In this document: positions 7,732-28,818 of the stretch, piece after piece | Layout: each line of letters opens with the position of its first letter | Numbering within the stretch: position 1 is the stretch's first letter | Source: Armatimonas rosea | GTDB taxonomy: Bacteria > Armatimonadota > Armatimonadia > Armatimonadales > Armatimonadaceae | NCBI RefSeq assembly: GCF_014202505.1 | Contig: NZ_JACHGW010000002.1 | Coordinates: 248,001-312,000 of the forward strand | Direction: 5' to 3' | Length of the DNA stretch: 64,000 nt | The notes under the pieces: model-generated | Told to the model about the DNA's origin: nothing | Database searches by the model: none | What the model saw: only the letters and a program-made list of their open reading frames with translations | Translations under genes and position numbers: made by a program

Positions 7732-8702
7732 CCCTGGGGAAGTTCGCTCCCCTCCACAAGGGCCATGAGCACCTGATCCAGACCGCTTGCTCCCAGGTGG
7801 ACTCGCTGATCTGCCTGATCTACGACTCGCCGGAGGTAACGACAATTCCTCTGGAGACCCGCTCGCGCTGGCTGCGCACCCTCTTTCCTACGGTCGAGGT
7901 GATCGAGCTACGCGGGGCACCGCAGGAGGTGGGCGAGACGCCCGAGATCAAGAGGCGTCACGAGGACTTTATCCTGGGGGTTCTCGGGGGGCGCAAGATC
8001 ACCCACTTCTTCTGTAGCGAGTTCTATGGGGAGCACATGAGCCAGGCGCTGGGTGCCCTCAACTGCCTTGTCGATCCCGCACGCAACACGGTCCCCATCT
8101 CGGGCACGGCGATCCGGGAGAGTCCCTTTCTTCACCGAGAGAGGCTCAGCCCCCTGGTCTACCGGGACCTCATTACTCATGTTGTCTTGCTGGGAGCTCC
8201 CTCGACCGGTAAGACCACCCTGGCCGAGGCACTTGCCCAGCGCTTTCAGACCACCTGGATGCCCGAGTACGGCCGTGAGTACTGGGAACAGCACCAGAGC
8301 GAGCGGCGGCTCAGCCTGGAGCAGCTGGTGGAGCTTGCCGAGGGGCACTGGGAGCGCGAGGAGCGAAAACTCCAAGAGGCCAATGGCTACCTCTTCACCG
8401 ATACCAACGCGCTGACTACCTACCAGTTCTCGCTCTACTACCACGGCACGGTGCACCCTCAGCTCGTGGAGTACGCCAGCCGCTGCAACGACCGCTACGA
8501 CCTGGTACTTGTCTGCGACACGGACATCCCCTACGACGACACCTGGGATCGCTCAGGGGAGACCAACCGACAGGAGTTTCAGGAGCAGATCCTCGCCGAC
8601 CTGGAGGCGCGCAGCATCGCCTACACGCTTCTCCAAGGCTCGCTGGAGCAGCGGATCGCGACCGTGGAGCAGGTGCTCGGGCGGCTGCCCCGTAAGCCAT
8701 GA
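7713..8702 (+). CDS. nadR: bifunctional NMN adenylyltransferase / ribosylnicotinamide kinase
   Basis: 329 residues from the ATG at 7713, where homology begins at once with GLTLGKFAPLHKGHEHLI. Domain 1 is a nucleotidyltransferase with HKGH and the ISGTAIRES motif near residue 130. Domain 2 has the kinase P-loop GAPSTGKTT near residue 163 and the NMRK-like EYGREYWE segment. The enterobacterial N-terminal DNA-binding domain is absent, so this form is enzymatic only. It phosphorylates nicotinamide riboside brought in by PnuC and adenylates NMN to NAD. Confidence 0.95.
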   Translation: MHTTGLTLGKFAPLHKGHEHLIQTACSQVDSLICLIYDSPEVTTIPLETRSRWLRTLFPTVEVIELRGAPQEVGETPEIKRRHEDFILGVLGGRKITHFFCSEFYGEHMSQALGALNCLVDPARNTVPISGTAIRESPFLHRERLSPLVYRDLITHVVLLGAPSTGKTTLAEALAQRFQTTWMPEYGREYWEQHQSERRLSLEQLVELAEGHWEREERKLQEANGYLFTDTNALTTYQFSLYYHGTVHPQLVEYASRCNDRYDLVLVCDTDIPYDDTWDRSGETNRQEFQEQILADLEARSIAYTLLQGSLEQRIATVEQVLGRLPRKP

Positions 8703-9254: not shown

Positions 9255-9989
9255 GTGGATGACGACGCGCTCTATTTCCCGCCTCTGGAGGGCTTTAACC
9301 GCCTGGCCGATACCTACGACCTCCGGCTCTCCGGCAACCCCGTGCTGATCATGGAGACGTCGCAGACCCTAGCGGCGCTCCCCAATGTTGCGGGCAAGGC
9401 GGTCGCGGATATTGGCTGTGGCACGGGGCGCTATGCCATCCAGCTCATGCGGCTAGGGGCCGAGCGCGTCGCGGGCGTGGACCTGAGCCCGGCGATGCTG
9501 GCCGTGGCGCAGCACAAATCGCAGAAGGCCGAGCTGCCGATCGAGTGGGGGATAGGCAATCTCTGTGAGCACATTCCGATCCCCGATGGCACGCTGGACG
9601 CTGCGGTCTGTGCCCTGACCCTGACCTTTGTCGAGAACCTGCGCCCCGCGTTTGCCGAGCTGGCGCGTGTCCTGAAGCCAGGAGGCGTCTTGGTGACCTC
9701 TGACCTGCACCCGCACGGCCTGACTCAGGAGCGCGCCGCCTCCAACGCTACTTTCCGCAAGGACCACGCCCCGTATCTGCGCTTCACCGACCTGCGCGGT
9801 CAGGAGTGCCGCATCCCGCGCCATCCGCACACCCTCTCGGAGTATGTCAACGCCGCCTACGCCGCTGGGCTGACCCTCACCGCTGCCGCCGAGCCGCTGG
9901 TGGACAGCCGCCTTGCGGTGACGTTTGGCGGCTTGAAGGAGAAGATTGGCATGCCCTTGGCGCTGGTCTTGAGGTTTGAGAAACAATGA
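9255..9989 (+). CDS. class I SAM-dependent methyltransferase
   Basis: About 244 residues from GTG 9255. Motif I VADIGCGTGRYAIQL, the acidic ribose-binding GVDLSPAML, and the post-motif LKPGGVLVTSDLHPHG define a UbiE/Methyltransf_11-type Rossmann fold. The substrate cannot be inferred; an insertion after strand 5 (HPHGLTQERAASN) suggests a small-molecule acceptor. It overlaps the next methyltransferase by 4 bases (ATGA), so the two are coupled. Confidence 0.87.
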   Translation: MDDDALYFPPLEGFNRLADTYDLRLSGNPVLIMETSQTLAALPNVAGKAVADIGCGTGRYAIQLMRLGAERVAGVDLSPAMLAVAQHKSQKAELPIEWGIGNLCEHIPIPDGTLDAAVCALTLTFVENLRPAFAELARVLKPGGVLVTSDLHPHGLTQERAASNATFRKDHAPYLRFTDLRGQECRIPRHPHTLSEYVNAAYAAGLTLTAAAEPLVDSRLAVTFGGLKEKIGMPLALVLRFEKQ

Positions 9990-10792
9990 GCACCTATAAA
10001 GAACAACACGAGAGTAACCGTGCCGCCTGGAGCGAGGCCGCACGCCGCTACGCCGCCGAGACCGAGGAGACGCTGGCGTTTTTGCGCGCCGGGGGAACCA
10101 ACTTTGTCGCCCCCGAGTACGATTTTCTGCGCCCCTTAATGCCCTGCGGCCGTGCGATTCACCTCCAGTGCGCCGGAGGGCGGGACACGCTCTCGCTCTG
10201 GAACTTGGGGGCGCGCGAGGTGGTCGGGGTGGATATCAACGACGAGATGATCGCGCTGGCCCAGCACCGCTCCGAGGCACTGGGGGCGCCCGCGCAGTGG
10301 TTTCGCTCTGATGTGCTGGAGACTCCTGAAGCGCTCAATGGCACCGCCGACCTGGTCTACACGGGGCGCGGCGCGGTCTGCTGGCTGATGGATATCGAGG
10401 GGTGGGCACGGGTGATCGCGCGGCTTCTGAAGCCAGGGGGGCACTTTTACTTCTTCGACGGGCACCCCTTTAGCTGGATCTGGGACCTGGCAGCGGATCA
10501 CTATGTTCTTGATCCTGAGTATGGCAACTACTTCGACCCCCGCACCCACACCGATGTCGGCTGGCCTACCACCTACATTCCGGCAGACTTTCAGCACGGC
10601 GCACTCGCCACCAAGTACGAGCGCCAGTGGACGGTCGCCCAGCTGGTGAATGCGCTGATCGGGGCGGGGCTGGTGATTGAGAAACTAGGAGAGCACCCGG
10701 ATACGTACTGGGACGCGTTCCCGAACATCCCGCCCGCCGAGCTGGCTAAGCTTCCCCAGACCCTCTCGATTCTGGCGCGGAGACCGTCGTAG
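9986..10792 (+). CDS. class I SAM-dependent methyltransferase
   Basis: 268 residues. Motif I is HLQCAGGRDTLSLWNLGA, followed by VVGVDINDEMIALAQ and LLKPGGHFYFFDGHPF. The long C-terminal segment with ADHYVLDPEYGNYFDP and TYIPADFQHGAL is typical of Methyltransf_11/25 proteins of unknown substrate. It is translationally coupled to the preceding, only distantly similar methyltransferase and lies 3 bases before recF. Confidence 0.87.
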   Translation: MSTYKEQHESNRAAWSEAARRYAAETEETLAFLRAGGTNFVAPEYDFLRPLMPCGRAIHLQCAGGRDTLSLWNLGAREVVGVDINDEMIALAQHRSEALGAPAQWFRSDVLETPEALNGTADLVYTGRGAVCWLMDIEGWARVIARLLKPGGHFYFFDGHPFSWIWDLAADHYVLDPEYGNYFDPRTHTDVGWPTTYIPADFQHGALATKYERQWTVAQLVNALIGAGLVIEKLGEHPDTYWDAFPNIPPAELAKLPQTLSILARRPS

Positions 10793-22231: not shown

Positions 22232-23812
22232 ATGACCGCTGACTATCTCCTAACCGATGCCCGTGTTTTTGATGGCACGGGCAATCCGTTTTTCTATGCC
22301 GATGTGGCGATTGCGGGCGAGCGGATTGTCGCCGTGACCGCCCCGGGTTGTTTCCCCCGCGAGAGTGCCCGCACCGTGCTCTCACTCCCTGGAAAGATCC
22401 TCTGCCCCGGCTTTATCGATATCCAGAGCCACTCGCTGCATCCCTACCTCAAAGACGGTCGGGGGCTCTCGAAAGTGACCCAGGGCGTGACCACCGAGAT
22501 CCTCGGCGAGCTCTGGACCCCCGCTCCTTTTGGGGGGCGACGCACGGAGCGGCCGAGCGATGCCCCTACCTGGCGGCACTTCTCCGACTGGCTCCGACAC
22601 TACGAGACCCGGGGCGTCTCCGTGAACCTCGGGAGCTTTGTGGGCGGTGGAAGTGTGCGCGAGTGGGCCTGCGGCTGGGATGCGGAGACGCCCACCGACC
22701 ACCAGCTGGAGCAGATGCGCCAGGTCACGGCAGAGGCGATGGAGGAGGGGGCTTTTGGGATCGCGCCTGCCCTGATCTACCCGCCCGACTCCTACTCCAC
22801 CGACCACCAGCTCACGGAGTGTGCGCGTGTGGTGGGGCGCTTTGGGGGGCTCTACATTGTCCACCTGCGCTCTGAGGGCGATGGGCTCCTGGAGAGTATC
22901 GAGGCGACCGCGGAGCTCTCCCAGCTCTCGGGCTGCCCGGTCGAGCTCTACCACCTGAAGGCCTCCGGGGAGCGCAACTGGGACAAGATGCCCCGCGCGA
23001 TCGAGCGGATCACCGAGCTCCGTGAGCAGGGCGTCGATATCACGGCGGACATGTACCCCTACATCGCCAGTGGGACGGGGCTCTCGGTCCTGATTCCCAA
23101 CTGGGCACACGAGGGCGGCAAGCTCTACGAGAACCTCGCCGACCGCGAGACACGCCGCCGTATCCACACGGAGATGCTAGCCCCCCAGGCCGCGACCGGG
23201 GACTTTGCCAGCAGCGACCGGGGCGGCCATGTCATGCCTCTGGACTTCCGCAAAGACCAAAACAAGCGCTTTGTCGGGCTTCGGCTTACCCAGATCGCGG
23301 AGCAGCTGGGCTGTGACTGGGCCGCGGCGGCGATCGACCTGCTCCTCTCCGAGGGCCAGCGCATCGGGACCGTGTTTTTCTCCATGTGCGAGGAGAACCT
23401 CAAGCTCCAGCTCCAGCAGCCCTGGGTGAAGATTAGCACCGATGCGGGCGGCCTCGACCCCGCAACCCAGGCCAATCCCGTCCATCCCCGTGCCTACGGC
23501 ACCTACCCGCGTGTGCTGGGTAAGTACGTCCGCGACGAGCGCATCCTGACCTGGGAGGAGGCGATCCGGAAGATGACCAGCGCGGTCGCCGAGCGCCTGC
23601 GCCTCCGTGACCGCGGCCAGGTACGCGAGCGCTTCTTCGCCGATCTCGTGGTGCTCGATCCTACGACCGTTGCAGACCGCGCGACGTTCACCGATCCCCA
23701 CCAGCTCTCAGTCGGGATCGAGTGGGTCTTTGTAAATGGCATACCCGTGGTTGAGCGTGGGGAGCATACAGGAGCACTGCCTGGTAAGGCTCTGTTTGCA
23801 AATCATTCATAA
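22232..23812 (+). CDS. D-aminoacylase-like amidohydrolase with altered metal site
   Basis: 526 residues from ATG 22232, 8 bases after the PEP-CTERM gene. The start MTADYLLTDARVFDGTGNP and LPGKILCPGFIDIQSHS are typical of N-acyl-D-amino-acid deacylases (amidohydrolase superfamily). The usual HxH of the first barrel strand reads Q-S-H, and the segment where D-aminoacylases carry a metal-binding Cys (GNCG) reads LGELW. Later ligands appear present: IVHLRSEG, YHLKASG and STDAGG. It could be a diverged D-amino-acid amidase/deacylase; loss or shift of one metal site is an inference. Confidence 0.82.
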   Translation: MTADYLLTDARVFDGTGNPFFYADVAIAGERIVAVTAPGCFPRESARTVLSLPGKILCPGFIDIQSHSLHPYLKDGRGLSKVTQGVTTEILGELWTPAPFGGRRTERPSDAPTWRHFSDWLRHYETRGVSVNLGSFVGGGSVREWACGWDAETPTDHQLEQMRQVTAEAMEEGAFGIAPALIYPPDSYSTDHQLTECARVVGRFGGLYIVHLRSEGDGLLESIEATAELSQLSGCPVELYHLKASGERNWDKMPRAIERITELREQGVDITADMYPYIASGTGLSVLIPNWAHEGGKLYENLADRETRRRIHTEMLAPQAATGDFASSDRGGHVMPLDFRKDQNKRFVGLRLTQIAEQLGCDWAAAAIDLLLSEGQRIGTVFFSMCEENLKLQLQQPWVKISTDAGGLDPATQANPVHPRAYGTYPRVLGKYVRDERILTWEEAIRKMTSAVAERLRLRDRGQVRERFFADLVVLDPTTVADRATFTDPHQLSVGIEWVFVNGIPVVERGEHTGALPGKALFANHS

Positions 23813-23856: not shown

Positions 23857-26391
23857 ATGAGCACGAGCTGGCGTATCACGTGTATTGGCCCCTTACAAGC
23901 CTCCGATGGCACGCAGGTAGTGACTGCATTTCCCTCCCTCCCCGCCAAGCTACTCCTCGCATCGCTCGCCCTGCGTCCCGGGGAGCTGGTGCCCCGCGAT
24001 ACCCTCTGTGAGCGTCTCTGGCCCGACGACGAGCCTGAGCGCCAGCGTGCTCGCTTTCGCTGGACCCTCTCGCGCTTGCGGAAGCTCCTCGCCCCGGAGC
24101 TCTTTGTCTCCAGTGGAAATAGTGCGGTCGGCCTTGCCCCCGGGACCACCAGCGATGTCGCGGAGTTCGATGCACTCGTCCGTGCTTCCCTCCGTCCCGG
24201 TATCTGCCACGACGAGCTTCGTGCGCTTCACGAGCAGCTAGAGGAGCTCTACAAAGGGGAGTTTCTCGCGGGACTGACCGGGGAGTGGGTTGAGACGGAG
24301 CGCGAGCGCCGGGCTCAGCAGCTCAAGAGAGCTATCCTACCCGGTGATATTGTTCTCCCTGATGTCCCCCCTAAACCGATCCCTGGGATCGGTTATTTTG
24401 GACGGGAACAAGAGAGGCGCACTCTCCGTACCTTTGCTCAGTCCGCCCAGCGCCTCTTGACCGTCACGGGAACGGGAGGGCTGGGCAAGACGCGCCTGGT
24501 TCGTGAGGAGCTCCTCTCGGAAGCGTTGCTCTTTGTCCCGATGGCGGCCCTCACGGACGCCAGTGGGCTCTTCGATCTCTTGCGCGAGCTCCTCAAGCTC
24601 CCCGCCTCCGGCTACGGTCCCGTTCAGGAGCGGGTGACCGAGCATCTTAAGACCCGCGGTAAGACCCTCCTCCTCCTAGACAACGCCGAGCAGATCGCCG
24701 AGGGCCTCGCCCCTCTGCTGGAGACACTCCTCGTCCAGTGCCCAGCACTCCAGCTGGTCGTGACATCGCGCCGTCGGCTCAAGATGGAAGACGAGCAGGT
24801 ACTGAAGCTGGAGCCGCTCCCACAGCGTGTTGCGGAGGCGCTGTTTTTGGACCGTGCTCAGGCCACTAACCCCCAGTTTGCCCAAACCGCCCCAGGCAAG
24901 GCGCAGGTAGCTGCGATCTGTAAGCTCTTGGAAGGCATTCCCCTCGCGCTGGAGATCGCCGCCGCCCGTGCCCTCCTGGTGAGCCCTGCCCAGATGCGCC
25001 AGGAGCTGGAGACCCGCCTGCGCTTTCTCGTCCGCCTGCGTGGCGCTGAGGCACGCCAGCTCAGTGTTCGTGCGGCTCTAGAGTGGTCCTACGAGCTCCT
25101 CTCGCCCCAAGCCCGCCTAGCGTTTCGTCGTAGTGGCGTCTTCCGCGGCGGCTTCACCCTCGCCGCCGCCCGCTTTGTCTTCGGCGACGAGCCTCCAGTG
25201 CTCGATGCGCTCCAAGAGCTCATCGAGCACTCTCTCCTCAAAGCCGACTACCACGATGATAACGAGACCGAGCGGGTGCGCTACACCATGCTCGAAGTCA
25301 TCCGCGAGCTCGCGGAGCTACTCCTCAAGGAGATCCCTGCGGAAGAAGCAGCTAGTTGCGGCTATCACGGCAGCTTTTATCTGCTCCGAGCAAAGCATGT
25401 GAGCGAATGTCTCAAAGCAGGTAGCTGGGCCGATGCGGCTGAGGAGCTAAAGCAAGAGCGTGCAAACCTACGTCAGCTTGTGGGTCAGGCAGTACAAAAG
25501 AAACAGGTGGACGTGCTCTATGAGCTTGTTCAAGCGGTGGGGGTGGCGTGGATACAGGTTGGCTTTTGGCAGGAAGCAGACCATCTCCTTGCGGGAGCGG
25601 AGCACTTATTCCCTCGTGAGAGTAAAGGACTAGCCGATGTCTTGACCTTGCAGGCGGTCTTAGCAAGGCGACGGGGTGAGGGAGAGGTTGCTCTCCCGAA
25701 ATGGCGGCAGTGCCTTGAGATTCATCAGAGACGCCAAGATAAGTTTCGAGCGGTGATTGCCTATATTGAGATTATCTCGCAAGCGATAGATGAAGGCGAT
25801 CTATCTTTTGCCCAGCAAGATCTTGCAACATTAAACGCTATCAAGGATGATGTGCAGCTCTCGGATATAAATAAGATAACGATTGACACACTGAGTGCTC
25901 GGATTAAGTTTGCCCTATCACTCTTTGAAGAATCCTTAAGTTTGTCAATTGAAATTATTAATAATTGCAAGAAAATAGATATCGACGATGCTTATTGGGT
26001 TGGTATTGTTTCTCATATTGTTCCTGTTTTTATACACTGTAGGGATTGGCAATTTTTAGATGATGTATTGCATGATGCGATAAGAAAATCTTTCCTTTCA
26101 AAACAAATATTTACGATGGGGATATTGCTGATGCAGGCAGGTAATGCCTTTGTCGAAACGGGGCAAGTGCTTGCAGCCATTCAGTCGTTTTGGCTTGCAC
26201 ATAAAATTCATCAAGAGCTTGATTCACGGTATCGAAAGAAATGTGAGCAGTCTTTGGGAGAGGCGATTCATCAGTATGGCACCTTCCCGGGAGTCGAGCA
26301 GTGGCTTTGTAAGGTAGAAGGAAAGCCTTGGAGCAGTATCTACACTGCAAATACCTTGCCAACATTTCGTCCGTACAATGACTTTAAATAG
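23857..26391 (+). CDS. AfsR/SARP-like regulator with NTPase (STAND) domain
   Basis: 844 residues. Residues 1-85 form an OmpR/SARP-type winged helix (LPAKLLLASLALRPGELVPRDTLCERLWP). Residues 95-150 form a bacterial transcriptional-activation domain (LEELYKGEFLAGLTGEWVETERER). The NB-ARC-like ATPase has P-loop TGTGGLGKTRL near residue 206 and Walker B TLLLLDNAEQ near 268. The C-terminal 350 residues are helical, TPR-like. Such proteins integrate a signal and activate nearby promoters. From about 25730 the DNA turns AT-rich without breaking the frame, so the sensor end may have a different origin. Confidence 0.88.
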   Translation: MSTSWRITCIGPLQASDGTQVVTAFPSLPAKLLLASLALRPGELVPRDTLCERLWPDDEPERQRARFRWTLSRLRKLLAPELFVSSGNSAVGLAPGTTSDVAEFDALVRASLRPGICHDELRALHEQLEELYKGEFLAGLTGEWVETERERRAQQLKRAILPGDIVLPDVPPKPIPGIGYFGREQERRTLRTFAQSAQRLLTVTGTGGLGKTRLVREELLSEALLFVPMAALTDASGLFDLLRELLKLPASGYGPVQERVTEHLKTRGKTLLLLDNAEQIAEGLAPLLETLLVQCPALQLVVTSRRRLKMEDEQVLKLEPLPQRVAEALFLDRAQATNPQFAQTAPGKAQVAAICKLLEGIPLALEIAAARALLVSPAQMRQELETRLRFLVRLRGAEARQLSVRAALEWSYELLSPQARLAFRRSGVFRGGFTLAAARFVFGDEPPVLDALQELIEHSLLKADYHDDNETERVRYTMLEVIRELAELLLKEIPAEEAASCGYHGSFYLLRAKHVSECLKAGSWADAAEELKQERANLRQLVGQAVQKKQVDVLYELVQAVGVAWIQVGFWQEADHLLAGAEHLFPRESKGLADVLTLQAVLARRRGEGEVALPKWRQCLEIHQRRQDKFRAVIAYIEIISQAIDEGDLSFAQQDLATLNAIKDDVQLSDINKITIDTLSARIKFALSLFEESLSLSIEIINNCKKIDIDDAYWVGIVSHIVPVFIHCRDWQFLDDVLHDAIRKSFLSKQIFTMGILLMQAGNAFVETGQVLAAIQSFWLAHKIHQELDSRYRKKCEQSLGEAIHQYGTFPGVEQWLCKVEGKPWSSIYTANTLPTFRPYNDFK

Positions 26392-26408
26392 GTAGAAAGA
26401 ATTAAAAA

Positions 26409-27428
26409 ATGTCTTATGAAATAGTTGGGTTAGTGCCTACGGTCGTTCCTGGGCAGTCGGACAGCCAAGCCTTTGGTATCGAGACTGCAGGATCCCTTGA
26501 TGGGTTCAATATGAGATATGGGGACGATGATAACATTATACTAGGAAAAATTCAGCTAGATAGTAATGTTTGTTTGCCATCTCAGCTAAAATATGGTTTA
26601 AAAACTGTCGATCAACTACATGAACTAATGCTCAAGCCGCGAGATTCAATCGCTGATGCCCTTAAAAAGAAAAATCCGACATTGAAGCCTTGTGATATCA
26701 TGTCCTCTGAGCGCCCAATTATCATGTGTAGCTTTGATAGACAGCAACGTGAAAGCTTGTTAAGTGTTGATGAAAGGCATGTGCAGGCTTTTGCACATAC
26801 CAATATCGTAAATATGTCTGCACCGAGTCCTTTTAGATCGCTGATAGAGGATTCAATGGTGGATGAGCTGCTAGCTCATCCCTCTCCACAAGATGCCTCT
26901 GGGATCTACTGGGATCAGATTCTAAAGTTTCCTGACCTACCTGACTACGTGAAAGACATTATCCAATACCGTAAGAAGTTTGATACTGAGTTTACGCTGT
27001 TGGGTGGTCAAGATAGCTTGAGTGAAAGTACTGGCAATGCTCTGAAGAACGTAGTATATATACGTTATATAAACGATGTTGATTACTATATTCATTTTGA
27101 GATAGATGAAAAAATAATAGAGGACTATCACTATGCTCTAATACGTGAGCCCATTTTGCTGGAAGTGATTTTAAATAGCCCGAATTTTCGTAGGGCACTT
27201 GTATCAGAATTGCCCGATGGGAACTTGAATGCTGAATTCCATGAGTCTGTTTCGACAATGAAATTTAAAGTGCGTGAGAATAACTTTAACATCCTGTATC
27301 AGCCCCGGAAAGCGGAGGATGTCACCATTGCCTCCCCCGCCCCCAAGCACTGCGTGAAGTGTAGTGGGAGTGGCTTTGAGCTCTATAATGGAGTTCTTGT
27401 TCCTTGGATCTATGACTGCGGTGCATAG
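26409..27428 (+). CDS. unrecognised protein with C-terminal CxxCxGxG motif
   Basis: 339 residues, no family recognised. It starts 17 bases after the AfsR-like gene and is probably cotranscribed. No signal peptide or membrane helix. A mixed alpha/beta body includes SPFRSLIEDSMVDELLAHPS near residue 140 and a charged FEIDEKIIEDYHYALI segment near 225. The last 25 residues carry HCVKCSGSGFE, an exact DnaJ-type CxxCxGxG half zinc-site, and a final YDCGA. Most of the gene is markedly AT-rich with rare-looking codons (ATA, TTA, AGA), but its last 120 bases return to local composition. It could be a target or partner of the flanking regulators. Confidence 0.72.
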   Translation: MSYEIVGLVPTVVPGQSDSQAFGIETAGSLDGFNMRYGDDDNIILGKIQLDSNVCLPSQLKYGLKTVDQLHELMLKPRDSIADALKKKNPTLKPCDIMSSERPIIMCSFDRQQRESLLSVDERHVQAFAHTNIVNMSAPSPFRSLIEDSMVDELLAHPSPQDASGIYWDQILKFPDLPDYVKDIIQYRKKFDTEFTLLGGQDSLSESTGNALKNVVYIRYINDVDYYIHFEIDEKIIEDYHYALIREPILLEVILNSPNFRRALVSELPDGNLNAEFHESVSTMKFKVRENNFNILYQPRKAEDVTIASPAPKHCVKCSGSGFELYNGVLVPWIYDCGA

Positions 27429-27565
27429 AGCAGTGCTCGGTAGCTCCTTGGTGGTCCAGGTCCCTTAGCCTAGATCATCTGGGAGCTATATATTTCCACG
27501 TGAGCTTCACACGTTTTGCAAACACCTGGCCCTGTACCCTCTCGGTATTCAAAAAATAGAGGGTC

Positions 27566-28066
27566 GTGATGATTCGAATATTAGGTGATGTGGTGGTAGC
27601 GGGGCGAACCGATTTCCGTACGCGTAAGTGCCGTGAGCTTCTCGGGATTCTTGTCTGTCATCGGGGGAGGGCTATCTCCCGCGAGACTCTGGGGGAGCTG
27701 CTCTGGCCGGGGGAGGACCCATCCGTGCAGCGGAGTCGCCTGCGCTATGAGCTCTGTATGCTCCGTCGCCACCTGTCCCGTGAGGTACTCCAGACCCAGG
27801 GCCATGATTTCGTTCGGATGAGCGCTCCCTCCGACTACGAGCAGTTTATTCGGGCGGCCTGTCAGGCGATGCGGCTCAGTGTTGTCGGGCAGCGGGTGGT
27901 GGCAGTGGAAGAGGCTCTGGCCTACTACCAAGGGGAGCTCTTGCCAGGGCACTTTTCCGAGTGGGTTCTCATGGAGCGTCAGCGCCTTGAAGGACTTCGT
28001 GAAGCCCTCCTGATGCGGCTGCAAGAGGACTTACCCACACCCCCTCCCTCAGACTTTGCGTACTAG
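27566..28066 (+). CDS. short SARP/BTAD-type regulator
   Basis: 166 residues. An N-terminal winged helix (RKCRELLGILVCHRGRAISRETLGELLWPGE) is followed by a BTAD-like helical segment ending YYQGELLPGHFSEWVLMERQRLEGLREALL. No NTPase or TPR part follows; the protein stops at a Pro-rich tail. It is the domain equivalent of the first 165 residues of the AfsR-like protein 1.2 kb upstream, with normal local GC. A DNA-binding regulator, or a decoy that heterodimerises with the large protein, are both possible. Confidence 0.8.
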   Translation: MMIRILGDVVVAGRTDFRTRKCRELLGILVCHRGRAISRETLGELLWPGEDPSVQRSRLRYELCMLRRHLSREVLQTQGHDFVRMSAPSDYEQFIRAACQAMRLSVVGQRVVAVEEALAYYQGELLPGHFSEWVLMERQRLEGLREALLMRLQEDLPTPPPSDFAY

Positions 28067-28070
28067 AGGG

Positions 28071-28805
28071 CTACTTCACCTTGGCGGGCTTGTTGGGGCT
28101 CTCTGCGGGACGGGCGAAGTCCGAGTCGGGGAGGGGGAGGTTGTTCTGGACCTGGGTGAGGGTCATGACGAGCTCCAGATCGCGGGTTGTTTGGCGCATC
28201 TGAAACGACGTCCGGATACCGTTATTGGTGCGCCAGTCATTGAAGTAGGTGATGGTGTTCATCTTGCCTTGGGGAGTTGCTTGGGCCTGATCGGTGCGGG
28301 TGAGCAAGAGCGTGGTGGTATCGTGGAACTGGAGGATCGGGGCGCTGCCGTCTTTGGGAAATAGCCGAAGCTTGTAGAAACTTGTGTTGCCTGCCTTGCT
28401 CACACCGAGGTTCTCCACCCGCTTGAAGAGATTGCGCCAGTTTTGCGGGGCGATACTCTGGAGGGCCTGGAGGCGCAGCTGTGCCAGCTCCTCACCCTTG
28501 AGAAGGCGCAGGCCCAGATTGGGGTCGCGGGCCCAGCCCTCCTTGCCGTCGTAGCCCATGGCCACCTCACCCAGATCGGGGAGGACCATGCGGAGCAAGA
28601 ACTTGTTGGGGGCCTTGCTCTTGATCTCGACGCTACCCGGCTGTTTTTGGCCCGTCAGCTGTACCGTGCCGACCGCAACAGAGCTTGTCAGCTGGGCGTA
28701 GGCGGAGCTGCCGGTGTTCTTGAGAAAGCCATCGAGGACCTGCTCGGCGGACAGCTTAGGTTTGGGGGAGGGCGACGCCACCCGAGCGGCGGGTTTGTGT
28801 TGCAT
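28071..28805 (-). CDS. LolA-like outer-membrane lipoprotein-sorting-type protein
   Basis: About 244 residues from ATG 28805. After a Pro/Lys-rich start comes SAEQVLDGFLKNTGSSAY and then a run of beta strands with IKSKAPNKFLLRMVLPDLGEVAMGYDGKEGWARDP, the pattern of LolA/LolB-fold proteins (half-barrel that binds lipids). No signal peptide is visible from either start, which is odd for this fold. The next ATG upstream (28814) overlaps the -10 box, supporting 28805. Convergent with the short SARP gene. Confidence 0.65.
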   Translation of the reverse strand: MQHKPAARVASPSPKPKLSAEQVLDGFLKNTGSSAYAQLTSSVAVGTVQLTGQKQPGSVEIKSKAPNKFLLRMVLPDLGEVAMGYDGKEGWARDPNLGLRLLKGEELAQLRLQALQSIAPQNWRNLFKRVENLGVSKAGNTSFYKLRLFPKDGSAPILQFHDTTTLLLTRTDQAQATPQGKMNTITYFNDWRTNNGIRTSFQMRQTTRDLELVMTLTQVQNNLPLPDSDFARPAESPNKPAKVK

Positions 28806-28812
28806 GGCTTGC

Positions 28813-28818
28813 ATGATA
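28813..28818 (-). promoter_or_regulatory. -10 box of a leaderless transcript
   Basis: Minus-strand TATCAT ends 7 bases before ATG 28805; a weak TTGTTT -35 lies 16 bases further upstream. Confidence 0.45.

Follow-up and report, generated by a model that had tools for sequence, protein, structure and literature searches.

Effector-swapping STAND systems are already known. Two published accounts (PMC7159879, PMC8195603) describe STAND conflict systems whose caspase-like and cyclase effectors are interchangeable, and a third (PMC10907252) presents the C-terminal repeats of antiviral STAND proteins as sensing phage proteins. The Avs, bNACHT, VMAP, and AP-ATPase systems of the former two share with the locus described here and its relatives a central STAND NTPase, a C-terminal repeat sensor, swapping of caspase-like protease and cNMP cyclase effectors at the N-terminus, and rapid evolution. 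Our locus has a SARP head and a companion gene, neither of which was found for those systems in the accessible text of the two accounts, and neither its STAND protein, P1, nor the companions matched a PADLOC system. A second point of reference is Streptomyces AfsR, a SARP-NOD-TPR activator (PMC10936776; PDB 8k60, 8jke, and 8hvr). The order of winged helix, BTAD, NB-ARC/NOD, and TPR is common to AfsR and P1, with the TPR part of P1 assigned through our alignment A1. Unlike AfsR, P1 has a short BTAD region and a dedicated companion, and its TPR subfamily also bears protease and cyclase heads.

We analyzed a 64,000-nucleotide stretch of Armatimonas rosea (contig NZ_JACHGW010000002.1, positions 248,001 to 312,000), referred to as the window, in which P1 is followed by the genes P2 and P3 (Table 1). 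All three are intact open reading frames on the plus strand at the positions given in the original prediction, and 17 bases separate the P1 stop from the P2 start. P3, which had been described as a winged helix and BTAD only, was found with Pfam and NCBIfam to hold a winged helix plus approximately 60 BTAD residues; an in-frame ATG at 27569 provides an alternative start for a protein of 165 aa. The genes adjoining P1 to P3 are housekeeping-like, and the right-flank protein labeled LolA-like had no Pfam match. Promoter and terminator scans of the locus revealed no convincing site.

Table 1. Features of the P1-P2-P3 locus, in positions of the window.
Feature	Positions	Strand	Description
Left flank, amidohydrolase	22232-23812	+	85% identity in same-genus genome G001
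4.26-kb segment	23813-28070		Contains P1, P2, and P3; missing at the orthologous site in G001
P1	23857-26391	+	844 aa; STAND (NB-ARC/TPR) protein with SARP-type head
P1 effector head	23857-24351	+	Winged helix and short BTAD; approximately residues 1-165
P1 NB-ARC/STAND NTPase	24397-25095	+	Approximately residues 181-413
P1 C-terminal TPR-type sensor region	25354-26391	+	Residues 500-844; alignment A1; defines the subfamily
AT-rich stretch	25800-27300	+	Spans the P1 sensor end and P2
P2	26409-27428	+	339 aa; predicted divergent member of the companion family
P2 conserved core	27072-27425	+	Residues 222-339; YIHFE, FNILYQ, CxxC, NGVLVPWIYDC; from profile alignments
P3	27566-28066	+	166 aa from GTG; SARP head alone (winged helix and part of BTAD)
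Right flank, labeled LolA-like	28071-28814	-	247 aa; 70% identity in G001

The head of P1 matched Pfam Trans_reg_C at 23 bits, which is below the cut-off, and the NCBIfam AfsR model over residues 4 to 152. In the NTPase region, which contains a GTGGLGKT motif, AAA_22 was found above its cut-off (32 bits) and NB-ARC below it (12.8 bits). P1 combines a P-loop NTPase with C-terminal repeats, as is characteristic of STAND proteins, and its relatives exceed both the NB-ARC and the TPR cut-offs. Likeness to AfsR itself was limited, as P1 scored 57.4 bits against AfsR model NF053617, for which the curated cut-off is 1430, and the AfsR cryo-EM structures matched in sequence only residues 5 to 154 of P1. 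The closest relative of P1 with a named record belongs to a MAG from the same family of Armatimonadetes.

The C-terminal region of P1 has few homologues, and each top match outside the host genome adjoins an unannotated P2-like gene. We searched a profile of this TPR region (A1) in 291 genomes of the phylum and took loci scoring at least 94 bits, of which 30 were inspected and four more at that score stand outside the count. A companion gene was next to the STAND gene in 25 of the 30 loci, lying either downstream in the same orientation or convergent to it, and in 16 of 21 when the nine seed loci were removed. At L197, the companion was found on the same contig approximately 1.3 kb past the STAND gene, and at four of the 30 loci (L193, L200, L208, and L209) no companion was found near the STAND gene. 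Among the 25 adjacent companions, 16 are supported by profile scores, seven form cluster B, which is linked through its C-terminal half (E = 4.5e-5), and two form the weakly linked cluster D. Profile tests connected companion cluster A with the companions of L168 to L170 (E = 9.6e-7) and with that of L165 (E = 1.7e-6). Companions share an ordered pattern: close to the start is a DDxxW strand, followed by LxxLLxxPxxW, a strand of the form VHL/YIHF, a helix, and an xNIxYQ-like strand, and the tail is of the form Cys...IKxY. The idea that P1 and P2 would occur together in other genomes was thus borne out by the P2-like genes that adjoin P1-type STAND proteins at these 25 of 30 loci.

A companion profile (A2) matched approximately 20 loci in 15 of the 291 genomes, with 14 of the loci adjoining an A1-type STAND gene. 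Eight matches lay outside the set used to build the profile; two of these were adjacent to a STAND gene, one was near, and five stood alone, with no STAND gene within 1.5 kb, so the companion family is not strictly tied to a STAND gene. The association between STAND genes and companions is strong but not exclusive. Homologues of the middle gene that mostly lacked either regulator would have spoken against the original prediction; such homologues were found in part with respect to DNA-binding regulators, but they are not mostly separated from the STAND-TPR core. Weak tblastn matches to the L165 companion (L176 to L183) were set aside, none being located beside a P1-like gene. Two companion copies without an adjacent STAND gene (L228 and L232) both lie beside a gene that by eye resembles DUF1800, which suggests that the family also occurs in another, independent context. 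The closest paralogue of P1 has an AT-rich companion of 482 aa (L063, 6494 to 7942, plus strand; G000:C2:182893-184341), which begins 23 bp downstream and lies 90 kb from the P1-P2 pair.

The same NB-ARC-TPR core as in P1 was found on different N-terminal effectors. Winged helix/BTAD heads are present at three loci (P1, L063, and L165), CHAT heads at five loci with companions (L194, L195, L198, L203, and L206) and at L208 without one, and class III cyclase heads at seven loci (L168 to L171, L201, L207, and, weakly, L204). L205 has an AAA_35 head, and L166, L167, L196, and L199 have a short head without a Pfam effector. The CHAT heads retain the His and Cys motifs HFxGHG...LSGC, with HFSGHA and LAAC as a variant in L206, and the cyclase motifs KSLGDG and NRVxR are retained in L171 and L204. 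The view of P1 as an AfsR-like NTPase regulator therefore stands for the domain order but not for the core as that of a SARP/AfsR regulator, since CHAT and cyclase heads occur on the same core. Because the companion remains constant while the output head changes, its expected point of action would be the sensor or the switch rather than the output.

P2 is not a chance open reading frame. It remains open for 339 codons, compared to a longest run of 253 in 2,000 second-order Markov simulations of 1,500 bases with the same composition, and the remaining five frames of the region are full of stops. We detected no match to P2 in Pfam, NCBIfam, PHROGs, or PADLOC; no direct homologue in 100 relatives, genome contigs, viral contigs, plasmids, phages, or PDB sequences; and no significant similarity in a comparison with the L063 orphan alone. 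Folding of P2 as a single sequence was poor (pLDDT of 32). Against a profile of 19 companions built without P2, L165, and L063, P2 aligned by hhalign over residues 227 to 321 with an E-value of 3.1e-5, and the three SARP-linked members (P2, L165, and L063) together matched the remaining family at 1.8e-7. P2 also matched the L165 companion by blastp (E = 1e-4) and the companion profile by hmmsearch (E = 0.0083 without L165 and 0.0035 with it). With a global alignment, P2 scored above all 4012 reversed decoys; some other profiles or alignments ranked it below decoys, and the case for its membership is therefore built on the profile-profile score, the bridge through L165, its position, and the order of its motifs. 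The invariant residues of A2 are, in order, P31, G68, H132, C226, and Y253, and by eye P2 contains a Pro (LKP), a His (YIHFE), a Cys, and a Tyr (WIYDC) in this order, with the Gly not evident. These sequence comparisons indicate that P2 is a very divergent member of the companion family and its hardest to place.

As judged from three orthologous pairs across three species, the companions are real, fast-evolving proteins: dN/dS values of 0.19 to 0.22 indicate purifying selection, and identities are 77 to 80% for the companions versus 89 to 94% for their STAND partners. The GC content of the companion was lower than that of its partner in 19 of 19 pairs. For both P1 and L063, the AT-rich stretch begins inside the STAND sensor end; at P1, GC content is 32 to 48% from approximately 25,800, inside the gene, to approximately 27,300, versus 60 to 65% around it. 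Either fast evolution or exchange of the sensor and companion as a cassette would explain this pattern. An AlphaFold2 model of the L199 companion from a 12-sequence alignment (pLDDT of 87.8 and pTM of 0.84) predicts an alpha/beta domain with a final long beta hairpin bearing the conserved Cys and Tyr. Searches with this model found no convincing relative by Foldseek in PDB (best E = 0.24) or BFVD (best E = 0.01) or by VIA (best Z of 2.7 over 82 residues, with an rmsd of 4.0). The modeled fold is possibly new, a weak or missing structural match being no proof.

In the same-genus genome G001, the orthologues of the amidohydrolase and the LolA-like gene (stop at 8589 and end at 8576 of L132, respectively) are convergent and share a 14-base overlap that leaves no intervening sequence, and synteny continues on both sides. 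Since the segment is missing there between syntenic flanks, P1, P2, and P3 were gained or lost as one 4.26-kb block. We found no terminal repeats and no mobility gene at the ends of the segment. The host genome contains approximately 45 P1-like (AfsR-like) genes with varied downstream genes, and the same search with an E-value limit that was tenfold stricter gave 11 matches in G001. One AfsR-like gene of G001 (L146, 5105 to 5948, plus strand; G001:C91) is broken over two frames and is probably a pseudogene.

The adjacency of the genes, the effector swap, the family relationship, the fast evolution, and the absence from the sister genome together point to P1 and P2 as a two-gene, NLR-like sensing module in which P2 is the partner of the TPR/NTPase core, a reading to which we assign a probability of roughly 0.6. 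P1 would serve as a STAND switch in which an NB-ARC NTPase is joined to a TPR sensor at the C-terminus and to an N-terminal output head that can be exchanged, and P2 would be dedicated to the core and not to the head. P2, a small soluble protein, would most likely bind the TPR region physically, where it could be a watched protein (a ligand or guardee) or a co-sensor. If P2 were then bound or modified by an invader or stress signal, the change could release the NTPase, which would oligomerize and bring the heads together, and a role of the pair in conflict or defense may be envisaged. As the head of P1 is of the SARP DNA-binding type, its output should be a transcriptional response, and in relatives a caspase-like CHAT protease head or one of the class III cyclase kind would provide the output. 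MalT-type STAND regulators are controlled by partner proteins. Such a STAND-TPR transcription factor, held and released by a partner, offers a possible mechanistic parallel for P1 and P2, although head and companion differ. More broadly, that the companion family, possibly with a new fold, is a shared partner of a STAND-TPR subfamily in which transcription factor, protease, and cyclase outputs are exchanged is a proposition that we regard as evenly balanced.

The variety of genes downstream of the roughly 45 AfsR-like paralogues in the host genome and the absence of P2 from direct searches would also fit P1 being an ordinary AfsR/SARP regulator and P2 an unrelated young gene acquired alongside it. 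However, homologous companions occupy the same place beside the nearest relatives of P1, and protease and cyclase heads are present on related cores; this explanation is further weakened by the profile match of P2, and we consider it unlikely. CHAT proteases are known to act on products of neighboring genes, which, with the adjacency of the companion genes, raises the alternative that the companion is a substrate or target of the head, through CHAT cleavage or regulation by the SARP head, for example; retention of the companion across protease, cyclase, and DNA-binding heads renders this quite improbable. Many members keep a C-terminal tail that contains Cys and ends in an IKxY-like motif, which might instead recall a peptide precursor composed of a long leader and a modified, Cys-containing C-terminal core that acts as a signal or product. 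We rejected P2 as such a RiPP precursor and regard the idea as highly improbable, since no modifying enzyme is encoded next to P2 or at any of the inspected loci and the tail is conserved, not hypervariable, with its beta hairpin modeled within the domain (pLDDT of approximately 70 to 95).

Our preferred reading of P1 and P2 as a pair leaves out P3, which the original prediction had included in a three-gene module as a short regulator competing with or bridging P1. The pairing part of this proposal holds, as it recurs, but the membership of P3 does not: no short winged-helix/BTAD gene was found beside the homologous pairs tested, where the matches to P3 were STAND N-termini only. P3 is an intact gene with the orientation of P1 and P2 and with host-like codon use, its DNA-binding part is kept, and we found no strong terminator in the P2-P3 interval, all of which would suit a three-gene module. 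Against it, P3 ends at the pre-NTPase linker, its tail DLPTPPPSDFAY stopping at the point from which paralogues read on through LPxxLTxFFGRE to the NTPase, and P3 is nearer to L165, L071, L070, and L063 than to P1. We thus regard a module of all three genes as very doubtful. That P3 is a recent duplicate of the P1 head was rejected on the basis of the same closer relationships. The stop of P3 lies 4 bases ahead of the conserved right flank. Because truncation at the NTPase junction makes a relic more likely, P3 is probably an N-terminal relic of another STAND gene and a by-product of the locus, and it possibly still binds DNA.

The companion family of P2 and its link to SARP-type heads appear to be new. 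Neither a SARP/BTAD/AfsR head nor the companion family was found in the accessible text of PMC7159879 and PMC8195603, term searches found no mention of Armatimonadetes in the accessible text of these two or in PMC10907252, and a literature search found no paper linking Armatimonadetes with AfsR. SARP/AfsR-like proteins, usually read as regulators of antibiotic clusters, would thereby be tied to NLR-like, effector-swapping STAND systems, and the companion becomes a candidate for the molecule recognized by the TPR sensor. If the companion is watched or co-sensing, the pairs with three kinds of heads would be a natural experiment on how STAND sensors are triggered, with the same sensing event feeding into gene expression, proteolysis, or second-messenger signaling. 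The approximately 45 AfsR-like genes of the host would then be a receptor repertoire and not metabolic regulators.

Several AfsR-like genes of the host have AT-rich sensor ends and AT-rich neighbors. An AT-rich orphan of 163 aa without a Pfam match (L081, 4349 to 4840, minus strand) overlaps an AfsR-like gene by 4 bases. At L103 (4352 to 5140, minus strand; G000:C10), an AT-rich AfsR-like gene has a 4-base overlap with a divergent PP2C-type phosphatase, whose NCBIfam match (E = 1e-4) was below the cut-off; here a related receptor has another kind of companion. At L066 (G000:C12:29800-44800), a tandem pair of AfsR-like STAND genes is followed by short genes on the plus strand (9622 to 9804 and 10014 to 10448) for proteins of 60 and approximately 128 aa, which contain a repeated unit like TAAAKGxSLNHNESTLR, had no informative NCBIfam match, and could be repeat precursor peptides. 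Finally, a TPR-CHAT protein follows an AfsR-like STAND gene with a 4-base overlap at L078 (6287 to 8848, plus strand), and the TPR-CHAT proteins in this position, here and in one further neighborhood, contain the tandem linker repeats RPIIAPE and RPIDTPS.
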